From NCBI GenBank assembly GCA_022828125.1, contig JAJEJD010000007.1:1-39816 (forward strand): 39,816 nt of DNA, in the 5' to 3' direction. How positions within the stretch are numbered: the first letter of the stretch is position 1; every line of letters starts with the position of its first letter. Below are positions 24,808-39,029 of this stretch, in pieces. The notes below the pieces were generated by a model, which saw only the letters and a list, made by a program, of their open reading frames with translations, had not been told where the DNA came from and made no database searches. A program made the translations under genes and the position numbers. The DNA comes from a bacterium. Lineage in GTDB: Bacteria; UBA8248.

Positions 24808-25139
24808 GCTTTCCCTCTCTCGGTGAAGCCCATCTGGAATGGAATCGAATGCCTCCGGGCCGGGCCTTTGTTTTCGCTCCGGTTCTCCGTCAGGTGAAAG
24901 ACATGCCCGGCGAGGCATCGCGGGCGCGCCGCCCGGGTGAAGCCGCGAACCGAAATGGCGTGAAAAACGAGGAAGCCTCCATTCGCCTCGGAGCCGGTGC
25001 GGCGTCGCTCCCCGCATTCTAGTGGATTTCTCCTGCCGGTTGAATATGATACATTTGGTTTCATCCTACATTCATTATCCTCATCCAGATTGCGGAAGCC
25101 GTCTTATCACACGGGGTGCGAAGCTTGGGGGAGGGGAGA
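24808..25139. other. divergent intergenic region, no gene seen
   Basis: These 332 bases lie between the SDR gene (minus) and the second NitT/TauT importer (plus). An AT-richer patch at 25038-25085 is the likely promoter area. No clear -35/-10 pair, repeat or RNA gene was recognised. Confidence 0.3.
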
Positions 25140-25895
25140 ATGCGGGGCAAGCCATGGTCGGGGATGCTATCCGTCTTTGGATTTTCGCTCTTCATCTTTG
25201 GGTGGTGGATAGTTTCGGAGTTCTCCCATCCCCTCTTCGTTCCCTCGCCCTGGCTCACCGTCATGACGGCCATCGAGCTGGCGGGAACGGGCTTTCTCCA
25301 CGAATCCATCCTGATGAGCATGGGCCGGATCATGGGCGGCTGGCTACTGGGGTGCGCGCTGGGAATTCCCCTGGGCCTGCTCATGGGCTGGTTGCCCGGC
25401 GTTCGCACATTCGCCACCCCCTACATCCAGGGATTGCGCTACATTCCGCCCATCTCGTTCGTGGGCATCTTCATCGTCTGGTTCGGGCTGGGTGAAGCCT
25501 CGAAGATCATGCTCGTTTTCTACACCTCGTTTTTCGTGATCGTCATCAACACCATGGCCGGAACCTTGAGCGCCTCGCCGGGGGTCCTGCGCGCCGCCCG
25601 AAGCCTGGGAGCGACGGAAACCCAGGTCCTGCTCCAGGTGGTCGTGCCCGAAACGGTACCCTACATCGTGACGGGCATGCGGATGGCCATGGGAAACGCG
25701 TTCATCGTTATCGCGGCGGCGGAGATGCTTGCGGCGCGATCCGGCATGGGATACCTCATCTGGTCCGCAAGAAATTTCATGCTGACCGATCAGATTTTTG
25801 TCGGTTTCCTGGGGCTGGGCCTCCTGGGGTTGACCACCGATCAGGTGTTCCGGTTCCTCGTCTACCGGTTTTTCTCCCGCTACCGGGTGGTGTGA
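25140..25895 (+). CDS. NitT/TauT-type ABC transporter permease
   Basis: Inner-membrane permease of 251 residues, SsuC/TauC class, with about six hydrophobic segments. The coupling loop is AARSLGATETQVLLQVVVPE and the start region PLFVPSPWLTVMTA matches the family. The frame is open from 25116, but the ATG at 25140 directly after GAGGGGAGA is preferred. It is the first gene of the second two-permease importer, followed by the receptor 195 bp away. It is clearly paralogous to the permease at 27121-27873: both share the PETVPY stretch and the C-terminal RYRVV/HYRVV. Confidence 0.9.
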   Translation: MRGKPWSGMLSVFGFSLFIFGWWIVSEFSHPLFVPSPWLTVMTAIELAGTGFLHESILMSMGRIMGGWLLGCALGIPLGLLMGWLPGVRTFATPYIQGLRYIPPISFVGIFIVWFGLGEASKIMLVFYTSFFVIVINTMAGTLSASPGVLRAARSLGATETQVLLQVVVPETVPYIVTGMRMAMGNAFIVIAAAEMLAARSGMGYLIWSARNFMLTDQIFVGFLGLGLLGLTTDQVFRFLVYRFFSRYRVV

Positions 25896-26090
25896 ACCAC
25901 AACAGCCGCCGGTCTGTATGAAAGGGCTGAGAATGGTTTCATTCCAAAACCCTTCCGCACTTCGCTCACGAGTCAGAACCGGGTATTCGATTCCGCTCAT
26001 CTCCAGTTCCGGCGCTAACGGATACGCCGGGCTTCAATCGCGATGTGTTGCCTCACCGAACTTCACCCTGTGAAAAGAGGAGGATGACCT

Positions 26091-27089
26091 ATGATGCGTG
26101 AAAGAAGCTGGAAAAGGGAATGTATCGGAATTGCCGTGTTGGCGTTTTTCCTGGCGGCCGGTCCCGGGCCTGCGGGTGCGGCCGACGACGGCGCGGTCCG
26201 CTTCTCGACCGAGCCCACTTCGCTGGGGATACCCTACTGGCTGGCCGAGGACAAGGGGATTTTCAAAAAGCACGGACTCAAGACCACCAACACCATGGGC
26301 CACACCGCCCTGGTGGGCCTGCGGGCCATCGGCAGCGGCCAGCTGGACATCTCCTTCCAGAGCGATCCGCCCACCATCTCGAACATCGCCAAGGGGATCG
26401 ACGCCATCATCGTGGCCGCGACGGCGCAGGGCAACGAGAGCATGAAGCTGGTGGCCAAAAAGTCGATCAAGAGCCCCAAGGACCTCATCGGCAAGAAAGT
26501 AACCTGGATGGGCGGAACCGGCGGCGAGTTCGGGTTCATCAAGTTCCTCGGGAACAGGGGCATCGACTACAAGAAGCTGGAGCACGTCAACCTCCCCCCG
26601 CCCGAAGCCGCCCCCACCATGGTGAAGGGCGCCGTGGAGGCCATGTGGTTCTGGGAACCCTGGCCGCGAAAGGTGATAGCTCTCAAAGGGGATGCCCTCC
26701 ACATCCTGGCGGCGAGCAAGGCCGCCGATTACGAGCCCAACTTCCACTTGACGGTCCGCCGGGGGTTCGCCAAGGAGAAACCCAAAACCCTGAAGCGCTT
26801 TCTGCGGGCGCTGATCGAAGCAACGGATATGGCCAACGCGGATCCCGCAGCGGCGGCGGCCGCGTTCCAGAAGGTCACTCGTTCCAGCGCGGCTGACGCC
26901 AAGGCGGCGCTGAACGACTACAAACTGAAAATCTGGCTCGACAAGAGTTACTTCGATACCCTTCAGGAGGTTTCTGCGTTCAAGAAGAAGCTGGGGCACA
27001 TCAAGAAGATTCCGGACTGGAAGAGCATCATCGATCCGAGCTTCCTCCGGGCGGTAGACGCCTCCAGGGCGAAAGGTTTCCCGTACTAG
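26091..27089 (+). CDS. NitT/TauT-type ABC transporter substrate-binding protein
   Basis: Periplasmic receptor of 332 residues, SsuA/NMT1-like. GAGGAGG about eight bases before ATGATG sets the start; either ATG is possible. A signal peptide ends near GPAGAA (about residue 31). The mature domain opens with VRFSTEPTSLGIPYWLAEDKGIFKKHGLK, the standard family beginning, followed by GQLDISFQSDPP and MVKGAVEAMWFWEPWP in the ligand cleft region. It lies between the two permease genes, an uncommon order. Ligand unknown. Confidence 0.9.
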   Translation: MMRERSWKRECIGIAVLAFFLAAGPGPAGAADDGAVRFSTEPTSLGIPYWLAEDKGIFKKHGLKTTNTMGHTALVGLRAIGSGQLDISFQSDPPTISNIAKGIDAIIVAATAQGNESMKLVAKKSIKSPKDLIGKKVTWMGGTGGEFGFIKFLGNRGIDYKKLEHVNLPPPEAAPTMVKGAVEAMWFWEPWPRKVIALKGDALHILAASKAADYEPNFHLTVRRGFAKEKPKTLKRFLRALIEATDMANADPAAAAAAFQKVTRSSAADAKAALNDYKLKIWLDKSYFDTLQEVSAFKKKLGHIKKIPDWKSIIDPSFLRAVDASRAKGFPY

Positions 27090-27120
27090 GACGAAGGGTG
27101 CGAAAGGGGGAATGTAAGGT

Positions 27121-27873
27121 TTGAGGATCGGGGGAACCATCGCGATTTACACTCTTTCCGTGGCCATCTTTCTGGTGGCCTGGTGGGGATTTACCTTCGT
27201 CTTTCCGCCGATCTTCCTCCCCTCCCCCCTGGCCACCACGCTGAAGGCCGTCGAAATCACGCGCACCGGCGAGTTGCCCTGGAATATCGTGATGAGCTTG
27301 TTCCGGGTACTCTCGGGATGGGCGCTCGGCGCCGTCGTCGGTTCATTTCTCGGGGTCGTCATGGGACGGCTCCCCTGGGTGCGGGCGCTCGCCTTGCCGG
27401 TTCTGGAATACTTCCGCTTCGTCCCGCCCGTGACGCTGGTCACGTTGTTCATCATCTGGTTCGGCTTCGGCGAAGAATCGAAAATCGTCCTGATCTTCTA
27501 CACGGCGGTCTTCATCGTGGTGGTGAACACCATGGCGGGGGCCGCCTCGGTGCGCGAGGGCGCCATCCGGGCCGCCCGGAGCCTCGGCGCCACCGGGACC
27601 CAGGTGCTCTTCCGGGTCGTCGTGCCCGAGACGGTTCCCTACATGGTCACCGGTTTGCAGCTGGCCCTCAGCAACGCCTTCATGACGATCGTGGCGGCGG
27701 AGATGCTCGCCGCGAAATCGGGGGTCGGCTTCATGATCTGGGACGCCCAGGTCTATACCAAGACGGAGCGGATGTTCGTCGCCTTCGTCACCCTGAGCCT
27801 GATGGGCTTCTGCCTGGATCGCTCCGTTCACGCCCTCTCCCGCCGCATGTTCGTCCATTACAGGGTGGTGTGA
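27121..27873 (+). CDS. NitT/TauT-type ABC transporter permease
   Basis: Inner-membrane permease of 250 residues, SsuC/TauC class. The start is a TTG at 27121, nine bases after AGGGGG; no ATG with a comparable site lies nearby and the first membrane helix begins about residue 7. Coupling loop AARSLGATGTQVLFRVVVPE. It pairs with the permease at 25140-25895 to form a likely heterodimeric channel. Its TGA overlaps by one base the ATG of a 46-codon ORF that leads into the ATPase gene. Confidence 0.9.
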   Translation: MRIGGTIAIYTLSVAIFLVAWWGFTFVFPPIFLPSPLATTLKAVEITRTGELPWNIVMSLFRVLSGWALGAVVGSFLGVVMGRLPWVRALALPVLEYFRFVPPVTLVTLFIIWFGFGEESKIVLIFYTAVFIVVVNTMAGAASVREGAIRAARSLGATGTQVLFRVVVPETVPYMVTGLQLALSNAFMTIVAAEMLAAKSGVGFMIWDAQVYTKTERMFVAFVTLSLMGFCLDRSVHALSRRMFVHYRVV

Positions 27874-28013
27874 TGCGAAAGGAGACAAAGCCGTTTCCCG
27901 GGAATCGTCGTGAGAAGAAAGCGAGCGAGGCGTATACGGAATCCACGTTTTCGCCGCTCGCGGCGCGTCTCGGGACGCCTGAAGACGCTCACTTGGGAAT
28001 CTTCTCCATATGA
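27873..28013 (+). CDS. putative 46-residue coupled ORF between permease and ATPase
   Basis: An ATG at 27873 shares one base with the TGA of the upstream permease. The TGA at 28011-28013 overlaps the ATPase ATG by four bases (ATGA). The peptide is very basic in its first half (RKETK, NRREKK) and has no membrane segment. It matches nothing I know. The ATPase gene has no Shine-Dalgarno site of its own in front of ATGA, so ribosomes arriving through this ORF may be what translates it. The function could be coupling alone. Confidence 0.45.
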   Translation: MRKETKPFPGNRREKKASEAYTESTFSPLAARLGTPEDAHLGIFSI

Positions 28014-28801
28014 CGGAAAAAGTCCGGCTCGAGAGAGTCACCAAAATCTTCGAAGACCCCAGGCAGGGACGGGAGACTGTGGCCCTGAAGGATGTTTCCT
28101 TCGGCATCGAAGACCGGGAAACCGTCGCCCTCCTGGGCCCGAGCGGGTGCGGCAAGACCACTATCTTGAACATCATCGCGGGGTTCATCCTGCCCACCGA
28201 GGGGAAGGCGCTGATCGAAGGACGCCCCATCACGAAACCCGGCCCGGAACGCGGCGTCGTTTTCCAGGAGCACTTCCTGTTTCACTGGCTTACCGTGGAA
28301 GACAACATCGCCTTCGCGCTCAAGGTCCGGGGCGTGTCCAGGAAGGAATTCCTGCCCCGCGCGCACGAATTCGTGAAGCGCGTGGGACTCACGGGTTTTG
28401 AGCGCCACTACCCGGACGAGCTCTCGGGAGGGATGCGGCAGCGCGTCTCCATCGCCCGTGTTCTCATCAACAACCCGGAGATCCTCCTCATGGACGAGCC
28501 TTTCGCGGCGCTCGACGCCCAGACCCGCCTCCTCATGCAGGAGTGGCTGCTCAAGCTCTGGGAAGAGCACCAGATGAGCATGCTCTTCATCACCCACGAC
28601 GTTGACGAAGCAATTCTGATGGCGGACCGAATCTTCCTCATGGGGGTGCAGCCGGGCAGAATCATCCATGAGCTCAAAGTGCCTCTGCCCCGGCCGCGGG
28701 CGCGGACGATGCTGACTTCTCAGGCCTTCATGGAGACCAAGGCGGGATGCCTGGACCTGATCGCAAAGGAGAGCGCCAAGATATTCGAGCACAGGGGATA
28801 G
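28010..28801 (+). CDS. NitT/TauT-type ABC transporter ATP-binding protein
   Basis: Cytoplasmic ATPase of 263 residues for the second two-permease importer. Walker A GPSGCGKTT (43-51), Q-loop Gln86, signature LSGGM (138-142), Walker B ILLMDEP (158-164) and switch His196 in FITHDVDEA. Motif positions are the same as in the ATPase at 1882-2694, so the two importers belong to one family. Its ATG overlaps the stop of the 46-codon ORF. It is the last gene of the importer group; the next gene starts about 260 bp further on. Confidence 0.92.
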   Translation: MTEKVRLERVTKIFEDPRQGRETVALKDVSFGIEDRETVALLGPSGCGKTTILNIIAGFILPTEGKALIEGRPITKPGPERGVVFQEHFLFHWLTVEDNIAFALKVRGVSRKEFLPRAHEFVKRVGLTGFERHYPDELSGGMRQRVSIARVLINNPEILLMDEPFAALDAQTRLLMQEWLLKLWEEHQMSMLFITHDVDEAILMADRIFLMGVQPGRIIHELKVPLPRPRARTMLTSQAFMETKAGCLDLIAKESAKIFEHRG

Positions 28802-29059
28802 GCCGACTCTGCTGAATCCATACTCCTCCGGAGGGGGGCTGCCCCGTTAAAACCCCCGAAGTTCCCGCAGCCTCCTCGTATTTCCGCACTCTATCAGTAG
28901 GCGAAAACCGCAGGCTTTCCCCGCCCGCGTTCGACCCCGGAATCATTGACAGCCGAACGGATTCCTGTCTATAACTGATCCATCTAAGCATATTGGAAGA
29001 CCGCGGCTGAACCCATGGCGCGGAGTGCGTGTTCCCCTTGGATTGGAGGGAGTTTGTCT
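28802..29059. other. intergenic region before the selenoprotein gene
   Basis: These 258 bases hold no gene. CTCCTCCGGAGG (28824-28835) forms a short palindrome without a T-run. The stretch 28930-29000 is AT-richer and is a likely promoter area for the selenoprotein pair, but no clear -35/-10 pair is visible. Confidence 0.3.
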
Positions 29060-30667
29060 ATGGGCGAGAACGCTCGAATCGAAATCATCAACCCCATCGC
29101 CGCCGTGGCCGAAGAGGAAGGCGCAGGCGCAGGCGCCGCCGTAACGGGCCTGGACGGGCTGCGCATCGCTCTCCTCGACAACTCCATGCCCCACGCGGGC
29201 GATTTCCTGAGCCACGTCGGCGAAGCCTTCGCCGAGCGGCACGACGCGAAGCTCCTCGTGCGCAAGAAGGGCTGGGCCGCGCAGGGCGCGGGCCAGGAGA
29301 CGCTCGATGAGATCGCGTCGAACTGCGACGTGGCGGTGACCGGCTTCGGGGTCTGAGGAGGCTGCACGTCGTGGAGTGTCCACGACTCGGCCGAGCTTGA
29401 AAAACGCGGCGTCCCCACCGTCGTGGTGGTGGGCAACGGGTTCGAGACGGCGGCGCGAAGCTTCGCCAAGGCCTATAAATCCCCCCACCTCCGCCTTCTC
29501 CTCGTGGATGACACCGTGGCCCACCAGGGCGGCGACGCCCTGATGCGCATGGCGAAAAACGGCGTGGATACGGTAGCCGCCGAGTGGATGAACACGGCGA
29601 ACGAGGGAGAAGCCGCCGCCGCCGATGACCCCATCGAGCGGGTCCTCACGATCGCGGGCGACCCCATAGGTGCGAACGGAGCGCTCTTCGATCTGGGGGC
29701 GACCGACGGGATGCCCGTCATCCCCCCCACCCTGGATATGGTGGAGCGGTTCGTGGCGGCCTCGGGCCGTAAGGGAGACGAGGTTATCGCCCGCCTCATG
29801 CCGAGGCTGGCGGACATCACCGTGGAGCGGATCGCGGCCAACGCCATCATGGCGGGCTGCAAGCCGGGCGTCATGCCCATCCTCGTGACGGCGGTGCAGG
29901 CCATGGGGGCGGAGGAGTACCACGTCAACCACGTCATCACCACGGCGCACACGCTTTTCCCCATCGTCGTGGTGAGCGGCCCCATCGCGCGCGAGGTCGG
30001 GATGAGCGACGGGCGCGACTTGAGCGCAGCGGGCTGGGGGGTGAACGCCTCGGTCGGCCGCGCGATCAAGCTGATCATGTTCAACTGCATCGGTGACCTC
30101 GAAAACCGGGGCGCCACCTGCCAGGGCCATTTCGCCAAGTATTTCGACGCCATCACCGAGAACGTCGAGCAGAGCCCCTGGGAGCCGCTCCACGTGGAGA
30201 AGGGTTTCGCCGAGTCCGACAGCGTGGTGACGGTGTTCACCGCGGAACCCCTCCACATGGTGGACGACCACAGCGCGCTCACCGCGCAGGGCATCCTGGG
30301 CACCTTCGGCACCGTGGCCGCCTGCTCCGGCACGCGGCCGCAGTTCGGCCGCTGCGAGATCATGCTCATCTTCGGCCCCACCCACGCGAACAAGGTCGCG
30401 GAAGCGGGGTTCGACAAGAAGCTCGTGCGCGATTATCTCTGCGAGGTCCACCGGATTCCGGTCAACACCTATCCCCCCGAATCGCGCGAGCGCTGGAGCG
30501 ACTGGAAGCAGATGCTCTACGGGGTGAACATGATGGAGAACGCGACCCTGCCCATCGTCGAGGAGAGGGAGGACATCACCATCCTGGTGCACGGCGGCGC
30601 GGGGCCGAACTCGCTCATGGCGCCCGGCGCGCTGAACCACCGATCCGTGACGCGGAAGATCGACTAG
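29060..30667 (+). CDS. UGSC-family selenoprotein (Sec99, in-frame UGA) fused to a C-terminal domain shared with the next gene
   Basis: Read as one 535-residue protein from the ATG at 29060 (GGAGGG upstream) through the TGA at 29354-29356 to the TAG at 30665. No other stop interrupts the frame. Residues 33-99 end in VAVTGFGV-U and continue GGCTSWSVHDSAELEKRGVPT. This matches the UGSC family, whose hallmark is U/C-G-S-C-T followed by a W-V-H-D-x-LE-GvPT stretch. Here the motif is Sec99-Gly-Gly-Cys102, a CxxC-like redox pair. The remainder (about residues 190-535) is a separate domain with MPVIPPT, DITVERIAANAIMAGCKP and VNASVGRAIKL, also found in the protein encoded 3 bp downstream. A hairpin at SECIS distance supports Sec insertion. 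Biochemical role unknown; a redox or detoxification enzyme is plausible. Confidence 0.85.
29354..29386 (+). promoter_or_regulatory. bacterial SECIS-like element following the in-frame UGA
   Basis: The UGA is at 29354-29356. Eleven bases later a perfect 7-bp stem, GTCGTGG (29368-29374) with CCACGAC (29380-29386), closes a five-base loop AGTGT (29375-29379). The loop begins 18 bases after the UGA and has G among its first two bases. That distance, stem and loop fit bacterial SECIS elements recognised by SelB. A weaker lower stem, GGC (29360-29362 region) with GCC (29389-29392 region), may extend it. Confidence 0.75.
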
Positions 30668-30670
30668 GCC

Positions 30671-31705
30671 ATGCCCGGGGTGCTCCTGAGCGAACTCTCG
30701 CCAGGCGCCGAAGCCGCGCTCGAAGCCGCGATGGAGAACGGGCCGGGCGACGGCCTTCCCCTCATCCCGCCGACTCGGAGAGCGGTGGACGCCATGCTCG
30801 CCTCCGTGCAGGAGGGTTCCGGCCACGTTCTGGGGATGATGGCGCCCGGCATGGTGGATGTGACGGTCGAGGATGCGGCCGTCTGCGCGGTTCTCACGGG
30901 ATGCAAGCCTTCGTATTTCCCGGTCGTCCTGGCGGCGCTCGAAGCCGTCATGGAGCCCGAGTTCAACTTCCTGGCCATCCAGGCGACTACCGAGCTCGCC
31001 TCGCCCCTGGTCATCGTCCACGGGCCGATTGCCGAGCGCCTGGGCGTGCATTCGGGTAGTGGATGCCTGGGGCCGGGCTTCCGGGCGAACGCCACCATCG
31101 GCCGCGCCGTCCGCCTGGCCGCCGTGCGGCTGGGAATGGCGGTGCCCGGCGAGACGGACATGGCCACCTTCGGCCACGGGGGTAAGTTCTCCGCCTGTTT
31201 CGCCGAGGCGGCCTCCGGCTGGGAGCCGCTCCACGCGACGCGGGGGTTCCGCGCGGAGCAGAGCGCGGTGACGGTGGTGGCTGCCGACGCCCCGGTGAAC
31301 GTGAACGATTATGCGAGCGGAAGCGCGGAGAGCGTGCTCCGCATGATAACCGCCACGATGGCCTATCCCGGTTCCAACAACGCGCAGGGCGGCGGCGAGG
31401 TGCTGGTCGTCATCAGCCCCCAGCACCTGGGGCTTCTCGAATCAGGCGGCATGAGCCGTGAGGACGCCCGGCGCGCGCTCTTCGAGGGAGCGCGCGTGCC
31501 GCTTACGAGTTTTTCGCCCGAGATCGCCGAGCGCGTGCGGGGCAGGCGGCCGGGGCTTTTCGAGGACGCGGAACCCGATGCCGTTCCGGTAGCGGACGGG
31601 CCGGAGAGCATTCTCATAAGTGTGGCCGGGGGGCCGGGGAGCCACACGCTCTTCTTCCCCACCTACGGCGAGACCCGGGCGGTGACGAAGGCGATACGGG
31701 ATTAG
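30671..31705 (+). CDS. paralogue of the selenoprotein C-terminal domain (family without known function)
   Basis: 344 residues starting 3 bp after the selenoprotein stop, so the two genes are co-translated. It aligns over most of its length with residues about 190-535 of the preceding protein: DGLPLIPPT (28-35 region) versus DGMPVIPPT, VDVTVEDAAVCAVLTGCKP versus ADITVERIAANAIMAGCKP (Cys78 conserved), VIVHGPIAERLGV versus VVVSGPIAREVGM, ANATIGRAVRL versus VNASVGRAIKL, and SGWEPLHATRGF versus SPWEPLHVEKGF. It has no UGSC domain and no signal peptide or membrane segment. The shared domain and spacing suggest a hetero-oligomer with the selenoprotein. No function is claimed. Confidence 0.82.
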   Translation: MPGVLLSELSPGAEAALEAAMENGPGDGLPLIPPTRRAVDAMLASVQEGSGHVLGMMAPGMVDVTVEDAAVCAVLTGCKPSYFPVVLAALEAVMEPEFNFLAIQATTELASPLVIVHGPIAERLGVHSGSGCLGPGFRANATIGRAVRLAAVRLGMAVPGETDMATFGHGGKFSACFAEAASGWEPLHATRGFRAEQSAVTVVAADAPVNVNDYASGSAESVLRMITATMAYPGSNNAQGGGEVLVVISPQHLGLLESGGMSREDARRALFEGARVPLTSFSPEIAERVRGRRPGLFEDAEPDAVPVADGPESILISVAGGPGSHTLFFPTYGETRAVTKAIRD

Positions 31706-32234
31706 GGAGGGTTCACGGCAAGGAGGGATGAGGGGTTCGGAGGGAATCATGCTTCACTCGCCCTCCCTCGGTTTGAAAACCAACCCCCCCTACCCCCCCC
31801 TTGACAGGGGGGTAAAAAAGGCTGACGCCCCGGCAGGTGGGGGATATGAAAAAAGACGACGCCCGCCGCCGGTTGAGGAGGTTTTGCTTTTTCATACCCC
31901 CCTGACAAGGGGGGGTAGGGGGGGTTGCCTTTATCCCCTGACAAAGGGGGGCTGCTCCTTTGACAAAGGCTTTTTCAACAGCCCATATCAAGGGGGGAGT
32001 GATATTGAAACCCGACCGGGGAGAGGGCGGTTTTGTAAGAGTCGCATATATGCGACCCGTGTTTGTCGGCGAAAGACAGGGCCGCATATATGCGGCCCCT
32101 ACGGGTCGGGACTGACTCTCAAGAGGGGCGTGAGAAAAACCAAGCGGCAGAGAGTGGTTATAGAGCAGGACTGATGAACTGACCGGCCAGAAGGTCGTCA
32201 ACCGAAGCATATCATTCCAGAAAAGGAGACGCCC
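31706..32234. repeat. intergenic repeat region (palindromic family copy 31781-31927 plus TATATA palindromes)
   Basis: The core at 31781-31927 is 147 bases with inverted ends CAACCCCCCCTACCCCCC and GGGGGGGTAGGGGGGGTTG. Its interior (GACGCCCCGGCAGGTGGGG..., GACGACGCCCGCCGCCGG) is shared closely with the copy at 35011-35157. The flank GGAATCATGCTTCACTCGCCC (about 31744-31763) matches, inverted, the right flank of the copy at 9963. GGCTTTTTCAACAGCCC lies at 31968-31984. Two further palindromes follow: GTCGCATATATGCGAC (32041-32056) and GGGCCGCATATATGCGGCCC (32079-32098). Confidence 0.7.
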
Positions 32235-33620
32235 ATGGCGGACAGGAGCAACGTCGACGTTCTCGTAGTCGGAGCCGGCATGGCCGGGGTGTGCGCCGCC
32301 ATCGCCGCGGCGCGGGGCGGCGCGCGGACGGTCCTCACGGACCGCTACGCCTTCCTGGGGGGCAACGCCACCGCGGGCCTTCTCGGCAACTTCCTCACCT
32401 TCCACAACATGAAGGGGGAGCAGATCTGCAACGGCATCCCCCAGGAGATCGTGGACGAACTCATCAATCTGGGCGGCGCCTTTCCCGAGGGCCACCTCCA
32501 CAACGCCTACGGCAACTCCTACTCCGTGACGCCCCAGGACGGCGAGGTGCTCAAGCTCGTGAACCAGAAGCTCTGCCTGGAGGCGGGCGTGGACCTCGTG
32601 CTGAACACCTACACCATCGGACCCGTCATGGACGGCGACCGGGTGGCCGGGGCGCGCATCGTGAACAAGAGCGGGGAGAGCGAGATTCGCGCGAAGGTCG
32701 TCATCGACGCGAGCGGCGACGCGGACATCGCAGCGCAGGCGGGCGCGCCCTTCCACCTGGGTGATGAGGAGGGGAAGATGATGTCCATCAGCCTCTTCTC
32801 CCGCATGGGGAACGTGGACCTCGACCGCCACCTCCGGCACGTGAAGGAGAACCCGACGAACTTCATGCTCGGCGAGGACCCCTACATCGGCAAGTCCCGC
32901 GAGGAGATCGCCGCAGGCCTCCGCACCCACAAGGACTACCCCCTCGTGACCGGATATTACGAGTCGGTCAAGCTCGCCCAGTCGCGCGGCGAATTCCACC
33001 CGAACCGCCAGCGCGTGGTGTTCTCCATCACCACCACGCCCGGGGTGGTCACCATCAACTCGACGAGCATGCTCGGCTACAGCGGCGTCGACAACGACGA
33101 CCTGAACCAGGTCGCCATCGAGGGCCGCGAGCAGATATTCAAGGTGCGCGATTTCTACCGCAAATACGCCCCCGGCTTCGAGGAGTGCTACGTGATCGAC
33201 TCGGCCTCGGCCATCGGGGTGCGCGAGACGCGCCGCATCATCGGGGAGGAGACCCTCACGGATGAGGACTGCATCGATGCGCGCAAGGGGCCGCGCGACA
33301 TCGGCCAGGGGGCCTACTGCCTGGACGTCCACCAGCCCACCGGCGTCATCGAGCACAAGCACGTCAGGGACGGGGAGGCCTACGGCATCCCCTACGGCGT
33401 CATGCTCCCGCAGAAGATCGAGAACTGCCTCGTGGCGGGCCGGCCCGTCTCGAGCAACCGTTTCGCGAACGGCTCCGTGCGCAACCAGGCCCACATCATG
33501 ACCATCGGCCAGGCGGCGGGCACGGCGGCGGCCATGTGCGTGGAGCGCAGGACGACCCCGCGTGAACTGCCGGTGGAGCCGCTCAGGGAGAAACTCAGAC
33601 AGGACGGAGCGGTGGTGTGA
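32235..33620 (+). CDS. FAD-dependent oxidoreductase (FAD_oxidored, PF12831-like)
   Basis: Predicted flavoprotein of 461 residues. The N-terminal dinucleotide motif VVGAGMAGVCAAIAAARGG (GAGMAG at 13-18) is followed by TDRYAFLGGNATAG (GGNATAG 42-48), the fingerprint of this subgroup. VVIDASGDADIAAQAGAPF closes the first FAD domain and the C-terminal ENCLVAGRPVSSNRFANGSVRNQAHIMTIGQAAGTAAAM is the second FAD-contact segment. GGAG lies about nine bases before the ATG. It precedes a sugar-class ABC transporter by 53 bp, so it may oxidise the imported compound. Substrate unknown; the subgroup includes enzymes of sugar and xanthan-like polymer catabolism. Confidence 0.88.
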   Translation: MADRSNVDVLVVGAGMAGVCAAIAAARGGARTVLTDRYAFLGGNATAGLLGNFLTFHNMKGEQICNGIPQEIVDELINLGGAFPEGHLHNAYGNSYSVTPQDGEVLKLVNQKLCLEAGVDLVLNTYTIGPVMDGDRVAGARIVNKSGESEIRAKVVIDASGDADIAAQAGAPFHLGDEEGKMMSISLFSRMGNVDLDRHLRHVKENPTNFMLGEDPYIGKSREEIAAGLRTHKDYPLVTGYYESVKLAQSRGEFHPNRQRVVFSITTTPGVVTINSTSMLGYSGVDNDDLNQVAIEGREQIFKVRDFYRKYAPGFEECYVIDSASAIGVRETRRIIGEETLTDEDCIDARKGPRDIGQGAYCLDVHQPTGVIEHKHVRDGEAYGIPYGVMLPQKIENCLVAGRPVSSNRFANGSVRNQAHIMTIGQAAGTAAAMCVERRTTPRELPVEPLREKLRQDGAVV

Positions 33621-33673
33621 CCGCTCCCTGGAATACGCATCATCCGATCACCCGGAAAAAAGGAGGAGAAACG

Positions 33674-34945
33674 ATGAAACGCACCGGAAACCGGCTATTC
33701 AGCATTATCGCCGTGGCCGCCTTTGTGGCGGGGCTCGCGCTGCCCGCAGCGGCGGCCAAGAATGTCACCCTCCTCATCCACCCGACCCTGTTCAAGGCGG
33801 CGGGGGGTCCCAAGGGCGTGGTGGCTGACCTCGAGAAGGAAAAGGGCATCAAGGTGACCGTGGTGACCACCCCCTACGGGAAGATCAAGGACAAGGCGGT
33901 GCTCTCCTTCGCGGCCGGGGGCGGGCAGTTCGACGTGGTGTCCTGGGTGGACGCGTGGGTCAACCCCGAGACCATCGGCTTCCTGGAGCCGCTGGACAAC
34001 TACATCAAGAGCGCGCCGAAGGGTTACGACTACGGGGACCTCATCCCCGCCCTCTCGGGCACGACCCGCTTTCCCAAGCCTAAAGGGCCCGCCTACGGCG
34101 TTCCCTACCGGACGGGCACCGGAATCGTCTATTACCGCAAGGACCTCTTCGCGGCGGCCAAGGTCGCGATTCCCAAAACGTGGGACGAGTTCCTCGCCGC
34201 GGCCGAGAAGCTGAACCAGCCCGGCAAGGTCTACGGCGTCGTCCAGCGCGGAAAACCGGGCGTCCACGTGGAGCAGGACTTCCTGCGCTATCTCCACAGC
34301 TCGGGCCACGGCGTGCTCTCCGCCGACAACAAGACCTGCCTGCTGGATCGCGCCGATTCGATCAAGCTGCTCGAGGTGTTCGGCAAGCCCTTCCGCAGCG
34401 GCTGGTCCCCGCCCGACATGCTGGCCTGGGGCCGCGACGAATACCGGAACGCCATGATGCAGGGCCGCGCCGCGATGGGGGTCTACTTCTCCCCCTACTG
34501 GGGCCTGATGACCAACCCCAAGAAATCCAAGACGGCGGACAAGCTGGGCTGGTTCCTCGTCCCCACGCTGGACGGCAAGAACCGCGGCGCCACGCTGAAC
34601 GGCGGCTGGCACCTCGTCATGGACAAGAAGAGCAAGAACAAGGCGGCGGCGTGGGAGCTCATGATGGCGCTCTCCAACAAGAAGAACCAGCTCCGGGGCG
34701 CCCTCAACTGGGCGAACGGCCCCGTGCGCAGTTCGGTCTACAACAACGCGGAATATCTCAAGAAGTTCCCGGTGGCGAAGGCGTGGCTGACCGCCATCAG
34801 CCGGGGCAGCGGCGCGGCGCAGCATCCGCGCGCGTCCGAGATAAGCGACGTCACCTCGAAGGAAGTCATCAACTACCTGCAGAAGAAGAAGAGCGCGAAG
34901 CAGGCCATGGGGGACGCCTGCAAGCAGATCAAAGCAGTTCTGTAG
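33674..34945 (+). CDS. extracellular solute-binding protein of a sugar-class ABC transporter
   Basis: Family 1 (SBP_bac_1) periplasmic receptor of 423 residues. The ATG at 33674 has AGGAGG about seven bases upstream; the longer frame from 33617 overlaps the previous gene's end and is rejected. Signal peptide: KRTGNR, a hydrophobic core, then LPAAAA at about residue 27. The mature part has the expected VTLLIHPTLF strand, a VVSWVDAWVNPETIGFLEPLDNYIK hinge stretch and NGGWHLVMDKKSKNKAAAWELM in the second lobe. It works with the MalF/MalG-like permeases at 35481-37259 and the UgpC-like ATPase at 37953-39029. Ligand unknown (sugar, polyol or glycerophosphodiester class). Confidence 0.9.
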   Translation: MKRTGNRLFSIIAVAAFVAGLALPAAAAKNVTLLIHPTLFKAAGGPKGVVADLEKEKGIKVTVVTTPYGKIKDKAVLSFAAGGGQFDVVSWVDAWVNPETIGFLEPLDNYIKSAPKGYDYGDLIPALSGTTRFPKPKGPAYGVPYRTGTGIVYYRKDLFAAAKVAIPKTWDEFLAAAEKLNQPGKVYGVVQRGKPGVHVEQDFLRYLHSSGHGVLSADNKTCLLDRADSIKLLEVFGKPFRSGWSPPDMLAWGRDEYRNAMMQGRAAMGVYFSPYWGLMTNPKKSKTADKLGWFLVPTLDGKNRGATLNGGWHLVMDKKSKNKAAAWELMMALSNKKNQLRGALNWANGPVRSSVYNNAEYLKKFPVAKAWLTAISRGSGAAQHPRASEISDVTSKEVINYLQKKKSAKQAMGDACKQIKAVL

Positions 34946-35214
34946 CAGCGCTGCGAAAACAAAGGCGCACCGGGGGGTGTTGGAAAAGTCCTCTCCTCAG
35001 GGGATAAAACCAACCGCCCCTACCCCCCCTTGACAGGGGGGTAAAAAAGACCGACGCCCCGGCAAGTGGGGAATATGAAAAAAGACGACGCCCGCCGCCG
35101 GGCCGAGGGGGTTTTGCTTTTTCTTACCCCCCTGACAAGGGGGGGTAGGGGGGGTTGCATTTTTTCCCTGACAAGGAGGTTGGGGAGTTGCTACCCCGCC
35201 GAGGAACGTACCAG
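34946..35214. repeat. intergenic repeat element (palindromic family, copy 35011-35157)
   Basis: A 147-base copy with inverted ends and an interior about nine-tenths identical to the copy at 31781-31927 in the same orientation. The left flank has GTGTTGGAAAAGTCC (34977-34991). It lies between the receptor gene and its permease genes. No gene is present. Confidence 0.7.
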
Positions 35215-35370
35215 AATCACTCCCCCCTTGAGGGGGAGTCGGCAAGACGAGGGCGAAGCCCGAAGTCGCGCCGGTGGGGGGACATGCCACAGAGTAAACC
35301 TCCCCCCACCGATTCAGCCTTCGCACAAAACGCTTGGCTTCATCGACTCCCCCTCAAGGGGGGAGTGATT
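35215..35370. mobile_element. MITE-like element with 27-bp perfect terminal inverted repeats
   Basis: The 27 bases at 35215-35241 (AATCACTCCCCCCTTGAGGG and on) are the exact reverse complement of 35344-35370. The 156-base element also has internal inverted parts (GGTGGGGGGA near 35272-35281 and TCCCCCCACC near 35301-35310). It has no coding capacity. Part of the inverted end (CTCAAGGGGGGAGTG) also appears singly at about 31995-32001 and 37703-37718. No clear target-site duplication was recognised. Confidence 0.65.
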
Positions 35371-35390
35371 ACGGATTGACGAGGTGTGGC

Positions 35391-35418
35391 GTAGGGACAG
35401 GTCGCGACCTGTCCCTAC
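35391..35418. repeat. 28-bp perfect palindrome
   Basis: GTAGGGACAGGTCG followed immediately by its exact reverse complement. It lies 60-90 bases before the permease start and would form a long hairpin in mRNA. The GTAGGG...CCCTAC ends are shared with the imperfect inverted pair at 37340-37432, so it belongs to a REP-like family. Confidence 0.75.
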
Positions 35419-35480
35419 GGGATGATGGCGGCCAACACGTCGGGACAGGCGCGGCCGCAGGCGCAAGCACGGAGAGGAAC

Positions 35481-36407
35481 GTGAATACCGGAGCCGTTCA
35501 GGATACGGCGCGGCGGGGCCGTGGCTGGCTCACCCCCGCGCGCAAGCAGGCGTTGGCGCCCTACCTGCTCATGGCGCCCGCCTTCATTATCCTGGGCGCG
35601 ATACTGGTCTATCCCTCCATCTACAACATCTATCTCTCGCTGTGGAAATGGCGTCTCACGACGCCCCATCTCTCCACCTTCGTCGGCTTCGCGAACTACG
35701 TCCACCTGCTCTGGGTCGACCCCGACTTCTGGGAGGTGACCCGTTTCAGCCTGGGCTTCACCGTGGCCACCATCGCCCTGGAGTTCATCATCGGGGTGGC
35801 GAGCGCGCTGCTGCTCTACGGCCTCGTGCGCGGGCGCAGGCTCATGACGTCCTTTCTCCTCACCCCCTACATGGTCGCCCCCATCGCGGTGGGCCTCGGC
35901 TGGCGGCTCATGTGGGACCGCGACATCGGCATCGTGAACCTCCTCATCACCCTCGTGGGCGTCGCCAAGGTGAACTGGCTCGCCGAGACCGGCCCCGCCT
36001 TCTGGGCCATCGTGATCTGCGAGGTCTGGCGCTCGACGCCCTTCGTCACCATGATCCTCCTGGCGGGCATCACCGCTCTCCCCAACGAGGTGTTCGAGGC
36101 CGCCCACGTGGACGGCGCGAACCGGGTGCAGGTGTTCCGGCGGATCACCTTCCCGCTCATCCTGCCCCCGCTGGTGGTGGCGCTGCTGTTCCAGACCATC
36201 TTCAAGCTGCGGGTGTTCGACATTCCCTACATCCTCACCGAGGGAGGGCCCGGCACGTCCACCATGCCGTACGGCCTGTTCATCCAGCGCATTTATTTCC
36301 GCTATTTCGACGTGGGCAACGCGGCGGCCACCTCGGTCATCCTCCTCGTGCTGGGCGCGGGTATCGCGTTCGCCTACTTAAGGCTCATCCAGGACAGGGA
36401 CGGCTAG
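35481..36407 (+). CDS. sugar-class ABC transporter permease, MalF/UgpA-like
   Basis: Inner-membrane permease of 308 residues with six hydrophobic segments. The frame is open from 35334, but the upstream part reads through the MITE-like and palindrome sequences. The GTG at 35481 with GGAGAGG three bases before it is the natural start and gives the family length. Typical N-terminal part: KQALAPYLLMAPAFIILGAILVYPSIYNIYLSL. EAA loop EAAHVDGANRVQVFRRITFPLI. The MalG-like partner starts 3 bp after its stop. Its leader region carries two strong repeats, so expression may be affected by mRNA structure. Confidence 0.9.
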   Translation: MNTGAVQDTARRGRGWLTPARKQALAPYLLMAPAFIILGAILVYPSIYNIYLSLWKWRLTTPHLSTFVGFANYVHLLWVDPDFWEVTRFSLGFTVATIALEFIIGVASALLLYGLVRGRRLMTSFLLTPYMVAPIAVGLGWRLMWDRDIGIVNLLITLVGVAKVNWLAETGPAFWAIVICEVWRSTPFVTMILLAGITALPNEVFEAAHVDGANRVQVFRRITFPLILPPLVVALLFQTIFKLRVFDIPYILTEGGPGTSTMPYGLFIQRIYFRYFDVGNAAATSVILLVLGAGIAFAYLRLIQDRDG

Positions 36408-36410
36408 GCC

Positions 36411-37259
36411 ATGGCGCGCGGCGAAGAGCAGATCGGGCCGGGTATCCCCTCCTTCCCGGCGGCGCGCGGGGCGATGATGGTGCTGCTCGCGTTCAGCCTG
36501 TTCCCGATCGTCTGGATCATGCTCACCTCGGTGAAGAACGAGACCGCCATATTCAGTATTCCGCCCAAGGTCTTCGTCACCCCGGATTTCTCCTCCTACT
36601 GGAAGTTCCTGGGTTTCGGCAACGAATCCGCGCTCCGGTTCATCTGGAACAGCACCTTCATCGCGGTGGTGACGACCTTCCTGACGCTCCTGGTCTCCTC
36701 GCTGGCCGCCTATGCGTTCTCGCGCTACCGCTTTAGGGCGTCGAACTACCTGCTCTTCTTCATGCTGGCGACGCGGCTGCTGCCGCCCGTCACGGCGGTG
36801 GTGCCGCTTTATCTCCTGTTCCGCTATCTCCAGATACTCGACACGCGCTTCATCCTGATCCTCATCTACACCGCCTTGAACATCCCCTTCGGCACCTGGC
36901 TGATGAAGGCGTTTTTCGACGGCATACCGAAGGAACTCGAAGAGGCCGCGGCGTTGGACGGCTGCGGCGCGCTGCGCACGCTGGCGCGGGTGACCTTCCC
37001 CCTCGCGTCATCGGGGATAGCTGCGACCTCCATCTTCGTCTTCCTGCTGGCCTGGAACGAGTTCATGTTCGCGTTCATGCTGACGAACGTGTACGCGCGC
37101 ACCATCCCCGTCCGGCTGGCGGAGACGATGGGGGAGATGCAGGTCTTCTGGCAGGACATGTCCACCCTGGCGACGCTGATCATGCTGCCCGCCCTGCTGG
37201 TGGGCTTTTTCATGCAGCGCTATCTCATCCGCGCCCTGACGGCGGGAGCGGTGAAGTGA
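36411..37259 (+). CDS. sugar-class ABC transporter permease, MalG/UgpE-like
   Basis: Inner-membrane permease of 282 residues forming a heterodimer with the preceding gene product. Features: FSLFPIVWIMLTSVKNETAIFSIPPK near the N-terminus, SSLAAYAFSRYRF before helix 3, and EAA loop EEAAALDGCGALRTLARVTFPLASSG. The start is 3 bp after the MalF-like stop. The ATPase gene lies about 690 bp downstream, separated by repeats. Confidence 0.91.
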   Translation: MARGEEQIGPGIPSFPAARGAMMVLLAFSLFPIVWIMLTSVKNETAIFSIPPKVFVTPDFSSYWKFLGFGNESALRFIWNSTFIAVVTTFLTLLVSSLAAYAFSRYRFRASNYLLFFMLATRLLPPVTAVVPLYLLFRYLQILDTRFILILIYTALNIPFGTWLMKAFFDGIPKELEEAAALDGCGALRTLARVTFPLASSGIAATSIFVFLLAWNEFMFAFMLTNVYARTIPVRLAETMGEMQVFWQDMSTLATLIMLPALLVGFFMQRYLIRALTAGAVK

Positions 37260-37952
37260 TGGGTGTGTTGGGGGTCGAACGCGGCGGGGGAGGGAGCGTT
37301 CGCTCGCTTGAAAAGGCCCTGATCCCTCGGGTTCGATATGTAGGGGCGGACCTGTGTGTCCGCCCAATCGCTCGGGCGAGAACACGGAAAAACGGGAGAA
37401 CACACAGGGCGGACACGCAGGTCCGTCCCTACGAAAACCGCACCCCTCGTCATTCCGGCGAAAGCCGGAATCCATTTTCGCCTTTGTCTTTGGCCTTTCG
37501 CCCGGCCGCACTCTCTCCCGACCGGAGAAGATACGGACACCGCCATATATATCCGCCTCATCCGTTCCGGATTCGGGCGCGGCGTTCCCTCCCGCGAGCC
37601 GGAATCAAATGCGAAAACGAAAGCAAAAATCATAAAATGGATTCCGGCTTTCGCCGGAATGACGGTGGTTTTCCCGCATCGAGGGGCTTTTTCAACAGGC
37701 CCCCTCAAGGGGGGAGTGAAATTCAACGCGCTCTTTCACGGGATAAAGGCACCCCCCCTTGTCAGGGGGGCAAGAAAAAGCAAAAGCCCCTCTACCGGTG
37801 GCGGGTGTTGCCTTTTTATACCCCCCTGTTAAGGGGGGGTAGGGGGGGTTGGTTTTAAGGGATTCCCCTTTCAAGGGGGTTGCCATTACCCCCGCAAGGC
37901 GTTTTTCAACGGCCGCGTTCGGGGTGCGGGGCGCGATGATGGAGGAACCGGT
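37260..37952. repeat. repeat-rich intergenic region between permease and ATPase genes
   Basis: Contains, in order: an imperfect 26-bp inverted pair at 37340-37365 and 37407-37432 (GTAGGGGCGGACCTG type, two mismatches); an inverted pair of the GTCATTCCGGC-GAAA-GCCGGAAT unit at 37449-37472 and 37638-37663; GGCTTTTTCAACAGGCC near 37684-37700 with a CCCTCAAGGGGGGAGTG end; a palindromic-family copy at about 37751-37851; and TTGCCATTACCCCCGCAAGG with TTTTTCAACGG (37880-37913), the inverse of the left flank of the copy at 9963. ORFs across this stretch are repeat-derived. No gene is called. Confidence 0.7.
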
Positions 37953-39029
37953 TTGGGCACGGTGAGCATCGAGAACCTGAGCAAGCACTTCGGCAGCGTG
38001 CGCGCCGTGGACGGCATCGACCTGGAAGTCGCCGAGGGGGAGTTCCTCGTCCTGGTGGGGCCGTCGGGCTGCGGGAAGACGACGACGCTGCGCATGGTGG
38101 CGGGCCTCGAGTTTCCCACCGACGGGGAGATACGCGTCTCGGGCGAGCGCGTGAACGAGATTCCCGCCAAGGACCGCAACATGGCCATGGTGTTCCAGAA
38201 CTACGCCCTCTACCCCCACATGACGGTGTACGAGAACATGGCCTTCGGCCTGCGCGTGCGGCGGTTTTCTGCGGGCGAGGTCGACCGCCGCGTCAAGGAG
38301 GCCGCCGCCCTCATGGGGCTCGAAGACCTGCTCCACCGCAAGCCCCGCCAGCTCTCGGGGGGCCAGCGCCAGCGCGTGGCGGTCTGCCGCGCCATCGTGC
38401 GCGACCCGGTCGCCTTCCTGTTCGACGAGCCGCTCAGCAACCTCGACGCCAAGCTCCGCGTCACCGCCCGGGCCGAGATACGAAAGCTCCAGCGCCGCCT
38501 GGGCACGACCTCGGTCTACGTCACCCACGACCAGACCGAGGCGATGACGATGGGCGACCGCATCGTCGTCATGGACCTGGGAAAGATACTGCAGGTGGGG
38601 CCGCCCATCGAGCTTTACGACCGGCCCGTCAACCGCTTCGTGGCGGGGTTTCTGGGGAGTCCGGCCATGAACTTCATCGAGGGCCGCGCGCAGCGGGCGG
38701 AGGGAGGCCTCGAACTCGAAGCGGGCGCCCTGCGCTTCCCGCTGCCGCAAGCCTGCCGGGAGGGAGAGGCCTACACCCTGGGCTTCCGCCCCGAGCACCT
38801 GGGCTTTGGGGACGCAGGCGCGCGCCCCGTCTCCGCCGAGGGCCGGGTGGAGCTCGTCGAGCCGCTGGGTTCCGACACCTTCGTCGCCCTCGATATCGAC
38901 GGGATCGTCCTCACCGTGAAGGAAGAGGGCCATTTCCGCGCGCAGGTGGGCGAGAACATCCGGGTGTTCTTCGACATGGAGAACGTCCACCCCTTCGACG
39001 GCGACACCGGCGCGCGTGTGGAGGGGTAG
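37953..39029 (+). CDS. sugar-class ABC transporter ATP-binding protein, UgpC/MsmK-like
   Basis: Cytoplasmic ATPase of 358 residues. The start is a TTG at 37953 with GGAGG seven bases upstream. Walker A GPSGCGKTT (36-44), Q-loop Gln82 in MVFQNYALYPHMTVYENMAF, signature LSGGQ (134-138), Walker B AFLFDEP (154-160) and switch His192. Residues after about 240 form the C-terminal OB/TOBE regulatory domain, including FRPEHLGFG and DTFVALDIDG. These proteins often serve several sugar importers. Here it most likely serves the receptor and permeases at 33674-37259. Confidence 0.92.
   Translation: MGTVSIENLSKHFGSVRAVDGIDLEVAEGEFLVLVGPSGCGKTTTLRMVAGLEFPTDGEIRVSGERVNEIPAKDRNMAMVFQNYALYPHMTVYENMAFGLRVRRFSAGEVDRRVKEAAALMGLEDLLHRKPRQLSGGQRQRVAVCRAIVRDPVAFLFDEPLSNLDAKLRVTARAEIRKLQRRLGTTSVYVTHDQTEAMTMGDRIVVMDLGKILQVGPPIELYDRPVNRFVAGFLGSPAMNFIEGRAQRAEGGLELEAGALRFPLPQACREGEAYTLGFRPEHLGFGDAGARPVSAEGRVELVEPLGSDTFVALDIDGIVLTVKEEGHFRAQVGENIRVFFDMENVHPFDGDTGARVEG

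Follow-up and report, generated by a model that had tools for sequence, protein, structure and literature searches.

A predicted UGSC-family selenoprotein encoded across an in-frame UGA and fused to a C-terminal partner domain

The window analyzed here (a stretch of 39,816 nucleotides, positions 1 to 39,816 of contig JAJEJD010000007.1 in assembly GCA_022828125.1, from a bacterium of the lineage UBA8248) contains two open reading frames in the same frame, separated only by a UGA codon at 29354-29356, which raises the question of whether they are two genes or a single gene in which the UGA encodes selenocysteine (Sec). Under the standard code the frame is split into one ORF starting at 29015 or 29060 and ending at 29356, and another spanning 29423-30667. 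An earlier note, made from the sequence alone, had read both as one selenoprotein gene with a SECIS-like hairpin after the UGA, and a stop scan of 29060-30667 bore out its description of the frame: the only internal stop is TGA 29354-29356, and the terminal TAG lies at 30665-30667. Read in this way, the forward strand at 29060-30667 holds 535 codons, with the single UGA as the Sec codon at residue 99. Eight bases before ATG 29060 there is a Shine-Dalgarno-like sequence, GGAGGGAG (29045-29052, forward strand), and the alignments with orthologues begin at residue 1 counted from this ATG; the in-frame ATG upstream, at 29015, is a less likely start.

The protein consists of a UGSC domain (residues 8-176) and a second domain (about residues 196-535), the latter absent from the earlier note. 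The UGSC domain (29081-29587, forward strand) matches PF24696 over the whole profile and across the UGA (130.6 bits, E 8.7e-38, gathering cut-off 25), while the match to the equivalog model NF041046 (99.6 bits) falls below the curated cut-off of 125. The UGA was said to lie exactly where the family has its Sec or Cys, and this held: Cys is aligned with it in plasmid-borne homologues from Natrinema, Halalkalicoccus, Arthrobacter, Roseovarius and Halorientalis, and a UGA occupies the Sec site in the plasmid homologues of Paracoccus versutus (pBEN, locus L083) and Acidovorax sp. T1. The assignment to the UGSC family was correct; the motif here reads U-G-G-C instead of U-G-S-C. The Acidovorax gene (plasmid p2-T1, L085 6920-7210), which adjoins IS1071 and IS91-type elements, is annotated as a truncated ORF of 97 aa ending approximately at the UGA, in agreement with the expectation that default gene callers split genes of this kind. 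Other variants were observed within the family. One paralogue in the genome to which the window belongs (G000 C31:1891-2397, L063) has the motif UGSS, with Sec kept and the second Cys lost; a protein on an Arthrobacter plasmid (L087 7985-8797) carries an extra C-terminal NifU-like domain (PF01106, E 4e-6), and another from genome G013 (L034) has a similar-looking, Cys-containing C-terminal tail. A search of viral contigs for relatives found none.

Orthologues of the complete protein are present in five genomes of the same genus (93-97% identity) and in one of another genus (65%). Each of them has this one TGA as well, and in none does similarity end at that point, since it runs to residue 535. 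Along the 21 codons from the UGA to GTG 29423, each of the five comparisons within the genus yielded between 2 and 4 synonymous differences and 0 non-synonymous ones, and the 55 codons from this GTG onward are under purifying selection too. These data bear on the simplest alternative, in which the UGA is a genuine stop between a gene of 98-113 aa and another of 414 aa starting at GTG 29423. Mechanical ORF calling yields precisely this split, and in any selenoprotein gene a share of the ribosomes may well stop at the UGA, but the strong purifying selection on the 21 intervening codons, the extension of PF24696 across the UGA, the Cys homologues that read through it and the presence of the Sec machinery described below make two separate genes very improbable.

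The hairpin was found as the earlier note had described it. It occupies 29368-29386 of the forward strand, 11 nt 3' of the UGA, with seven perfect pairs, GUCGUGG/CCACGAC (29368-29374 and 29380-29386), and the loop AGUGU (29375-29379). The model of bacterial SECIS elements asks for a loop of 3-9 nt, a stem of 4-16 bp, G in the first two loop positions, 16-37 nt from the UGA to the loop and an MFE <= -7.5 (PMC13188914). The window hairpin agrees with every one of these rules, with a loop of 5 nt, a stem of 7 bp, G at loop position 2 (followed by U), a distance of 18 nt and an MFE of -21.9 kcal/mol (z -2.4). As a single sequence it goes moderately beyond chance when compared with synonymous-codon randomizations (MFE, p 0.023; stem length, p 0.042), and an Rfam scan of the window returned no family and no bacterial SECIS match. 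Because MFE z-scores by themselves do not distinguish several of the paralogue hairpins from synonymous shuffles, the case for a SECIS was built on covariation and on the identity of codons. In an alignment of 14 distinct UGSC sequences of the lineage, 94.9% of the cells pair, and compensatory changes are found among the paralogues, one pair changing from GC to AU and to CG and another from GC to CG. Covariation reached 0.275, against 0.134 +/- 0.025 in shuffles (0/500 as high), with a significance that is inflated because related sequences are not fully independent; all slid registers gave far lower values. Moreover, codons 96-109, a run of 14 straddling the UGA and the hairpin, are identical at the nucleotide level to those of the 65%-identical orthologue, the next longest run in the 535 codons being of 5. 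Only 50% of the codons for conserved residues are identical overall between these two genes, and the match over the nine degenerate codons that follow the UGA has p 0.0016. At two other fusion loci (L050 and L052) a different sequence folds at a similar position, with the loop GGUCAGA. The comparative evidence, that is, compensatory changes and codon identity, is stronger than the single-sequence statistics in pointing to a functional hairpin.

The lack of selA, selB, selC or selD in the host would have argued against Sec insertion, and all four are present in the same genome (3.9 Mb, 97% complete): tRNA-Sec (selC) at C30:107402 (75.9 bits, cut-off 47), SelA at C30:163419 (575.9 bits, cut-off 268), SelB at C30:165740 (384.5 bits, cut-off 242) and SelD at C30:4116 (334.9 bits, cut-off 125), the latter with an in-frame UGA in AGGUGSK. 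Searches with the UGSC Pfam model in 18 related genomes of the phylum gave 90 matches, distributed over all 18. Exactly one in-frame TGA was found in 89 of them, and the remaining match is a fragment starting downstream of the Sec site. These numbers speak to a further possibility, that the UGA stems from faulty assembly or sequencing, or from a Cys codon mutated in a pseudogene, which could be entertained in a metagenome-assembled genome; the same TGA in six other assemblies, one of them from another genus, and in nearly every UGSC match, together with purifying selection on both sides of the codon, leaves it practically no probability, the independent assemblies refuting it. Equally negligible, and with no point in its favour, is a reassignment of UGA in this genome, for example to Trp or Gly: TGA is the stop of 13 of the 27 confident genes in the window, a usage that refutes it, and tRNA-Sec, SelA and SelB are present. 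On comparative sequence evidence, 29060-30667 is confirmed as one gene, predicted to encode a genuine selenoprotein that belongs to an established family, and we infer insertion of Sec at UGA 29354-29356 with near certainty.

In metagenomes from aquatic environments, UGSC ranks with the more common families of selenoproteins. A survey from 2016 counted 33 UGSC selenoproteins in 26 organisms and took six selenoproteins as the threshold for a selenoprotein-rich organism (PMC5029168). The genome studied here exceeds this threshold with at least 13 selenoprotein genes: eight UGSC genes, 8/8 of them with Sec, four PF07355 genes and SelD. The PF07355 genes, one GrdB-like and three PrdB-like, each have an in-frame UGA at the Sec position of their family and are located at loci other than those of UGSC (C15:262831, C19:225508, C5:84444 and C17:5347; L092-L095); glycine or proline fermentation would be unexpected in this genome. 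Publicly named relatives are Nitrospinota/Nitrospinae metagenome bins, and by our reading of the bin names some are putatively of sponge origin.

The second domain of the protein (CTD; 29645-30664, forward strand) has no Pfam relative, and a PDB sequence search with it returned only chance-level matches. Positions invariant in 22 sequences include DG-P, followed by PT, the GC of an (M)AGC motif, whose Cys is residue 267 of the window protein, and GP. The domain occurs at 15 places in the genome, and at most of the other loci there UGSC and CTD are encoded by adjacent separate genes, an arrangement also found on archaeal and bacterial plasmids; the CTD is hence a recurrent partner of UGSC proteins that is fused in the window and is a separate neighbour elsewhere. 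The order is trxB-trxA-CTD-UGSC on the Arthrobacter plasmid and CTD-UGSC-trxB in Roseovarius, and in Variovorax trxB is close by. Additional neighbours of UGSC and CTD genes are solute-binding proteins of TTT, TRAP and ABC transporters, CoA-transferases and hydratases. In one tandem array (L062 7346-11550, G000 C5) there are four CTD copies and, close to them, a single UGSC gene, so that a number of CTD proteins may share one Sec protein. A fusion between UGSC and an unnamed domain, "Unknown_1", was reported in 2008 (PMC2398784, Figure S1A), and Unknown_1 is probably the CTD of the window protein. Structural modelling was of limited use. The AlphaFold model of the fusion has a pLDDT of 36 in the CTD, which makes it unusable, and that of the UGSC domain reaches a pLDDT of only 62; in it the sheet looks Rossmann-like and Sec sits where a helix begins, just past a strand. 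With this low-confidence model Foldseek returned generic alpha/beta matches, the top ones including no Trx protein, and a PDB sequence search with UGSC gave nothing.

The selenoprotein gene is the first of an operon on the forward strand. It is followed by a free-standing CTD paralogue (30671-31705, about 31% identical), an FAD-dependent oxidoreductase (PF12831, 32235-33620) that is conserved beside the selenoprotein gene, and an ABC importer composed of a substrate-binding protein (PF01547, 33617-34945), two permeases (PF00528, 35334-36407 and 36411-37259) and a MalK-type ATPase (PF00005, OB_MalK, 37953-39029). The free CTD, the oxidoreductase and the importer (33617-39029) are kept at the orthologous loci of the same genus, as far as the contigs reach, and the operon is complete in a genome of another genus (G017), with identities of 66-85%. 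A sulfonate-type ABC transporter at 25116-28801 was considered as part of the system and rejected, being absent upstream of the orthologues, and since the downstream genes are conserved and this transporter is not, the limits of the system were set at 29060-39029. The nearest NCBIfam models for 25116-28801 are SsuA, TauC, SaoA and SaoP, all scoring below cut-off. An assignment to the Sao type (selenocysteine-assisted organometallic), raised by SaoA being the top model for the ATPase, was also discarded, since the SaoA match scored 248 bits where the cut-off is 360 and the transporter genes are not conserved with the selenoprotein. Two copies of a dispersed, partly palindromic MITE-like repeat lie between operon genes (31760-31960 and 35006-35174), and the repeat was scored at 40 or more places in the genome, at 72-94% identity. 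An ORF of 148 aa at 31728-32174, inside the repeat, is probably not a gene.

With respect to function, we know of none assigned so far to the UGSC family. A 17-sequence UGSC profile was compared with a 12-sequence profile of GrdB/PrdB, the Sec subunits of glycine and D-proline reductase, resulting in a probability of 95.3 and a pairwise E of 2.3e-8, with Sec aligned on Sec and the element "(L)E--GIPTV" that follows it also matched. The score is 56, whereas the best of 60 column shuffles scored 20; reversal gives 0.4%, and with the Sec columns masked in both profiles the probability is still 93%. An earlier comparison with two PrdB sequences had been weak (16%), and it was the 12-sequence profile that proved decisive. 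As judged from these alignments, the UGSC domain is shown to be a distant homologue of the GrdB/PrdB Sec domain, a relation that is not stated in the literature found by keyword that names both families, although a Pfam clan or another paper may have it. PF07355 itself has no match among UGSC proteins at E<=10. As for the partner, the CTD gives 0.2% against the GrdB/PrdB profile and no relation to UGSC, and CTD proteins have no Pfam match of the Gly_reductase type at E<=10 and no detectable relation to GrdE or PrdA, the partner proproteins that form a pyruvoyl group in those reductases, so that homology lends no support to the analogy where substrate binding is concerned.

In glycine and proline reductases the Sec selenolate helps to form a Se-C bond with the activated substrate. 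A thiol resolves this bond, leaving a selenenyl-sulfide, and thioredoxin or some other dithiol then reduces the latter (review PMC10298544). The homology to GrdB/PrdB, the UxxC motif, the fixed partner and the trxB/trxA neighbours lead us to infer a cycle of this type, and thereby a concrete hypothesis for the function of UGSC proteins. SelB, guided by the hairpin at 29368-29386, would insert Sec (residue 99) at the UGA. The CTD would bind a small organic substrate, supplied through the importer of the operon, with different CTD paralogues for different substrates. The Sec selenolate would then attack the substrate and cleave a bond reductively, after which a selenenyl-sulfide could form between Sec and the Cys of U-x-x-C, to be reset by the thioredoxin system or, in the window operon, perhaps by the flavoprotein. 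As a counterpoint to resetting by thioredoxin, this genome has a single trxB, located at a distance from every UGSC gene, and the operon's FAD oxidoreductase is a member of a family with mixed functions. Cycling through U-x-x-C cannot hold for all UGSC proteins either, as the UGSS paralogue has no second Cys. We give this mechanism an even chance of applying to the fusion.

The UGSC selenoprotein could otherwise be a general thiol/selenol oxidoreductase of the thioredoxin-like kind, as the 2008 marine survey supposed, rather than a substrate-cleaving reductase. The UxxC motif and the trxB/trxA neighbours would suit a redox protein too, but the homology is to GrdB/PrdB and not to thioredoxins, no Trx family match was obtained, and the weak UGSC model looks Rossmann-like instead of Trx-like. 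In addition, the eight paralogues in one genome, several of them CTD-paired and in transport or acyl-CoA clusters, suggest substrate-specific enzymes, and we regard a general oxidoreductase as rather unlikely. The role that the sequence comparisons make most likely for the fusion is that of a substrate-specific Sec reductase. The explanation we favour, and consider moderately probable, is that of a single Sec protein, made under the guidance of SECIS and SelB, with UGSC-CTD architecture, working like glycine or proline reductase and having its own importer. More tentatively, and with somewhat less than even confidence, UGSC could constitute a third branch of the glycine/proline reductase superfamily: two-part UGSC-CTD enzymes with specificity set by the CTD, which a marine, sponge-associated, Nitrospinota-like lineage would have expanded to eight systems, all with Sec, and which would have spread in Cys or Sec forms on proteobacterial, actinobacterial and haloarchaeal plasmids, with the window gene as the single-chain version that has its own importer.

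The fusion is of a known type; what adds interest is its link to GrdB/PrdB, the expansion of the family with Sec throughout, and the conservation of the operon. It offers a one-gene system in which the functional hypothesis could be addressed, with an importer in the operon that should handle the substrate, and the lineage exposes how a whole expanded family, eight members per genome, is split or truncated by standard annotation.

Compared with the UGSC family as defined by PF24696 and NF041046, the window protein is alike in having Sec at the U of the family, a full bacterial SECIS and known Cys homologues; it differs in its UGGC motif, in which U, G and the second Cys are kept, in scoring below the NF041046 cut-off, and in being fused to a CTD as one of eight all-Sec copies in one genome. 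With the 2008 fusion to Unknown_1 it shares the combination of UGSC with an unnamed conserved domain that has a conserved Cys. The likeness to GrdB/PrdB (PF07355) lies in the distantly homologous Sec region, the UxxC common to UGSC and PrdB, the pairing with a second subunit and, in some genomes, the neighbouring thioredoxin reductase. Unlike those proteins, UGSC is devoid of the N-terminal GrdB region and lies below Pfam detection, its partner is, by the searches made, unrelated to GrdE/PrdA, and its hosts are mostly aerobic-type or marine.
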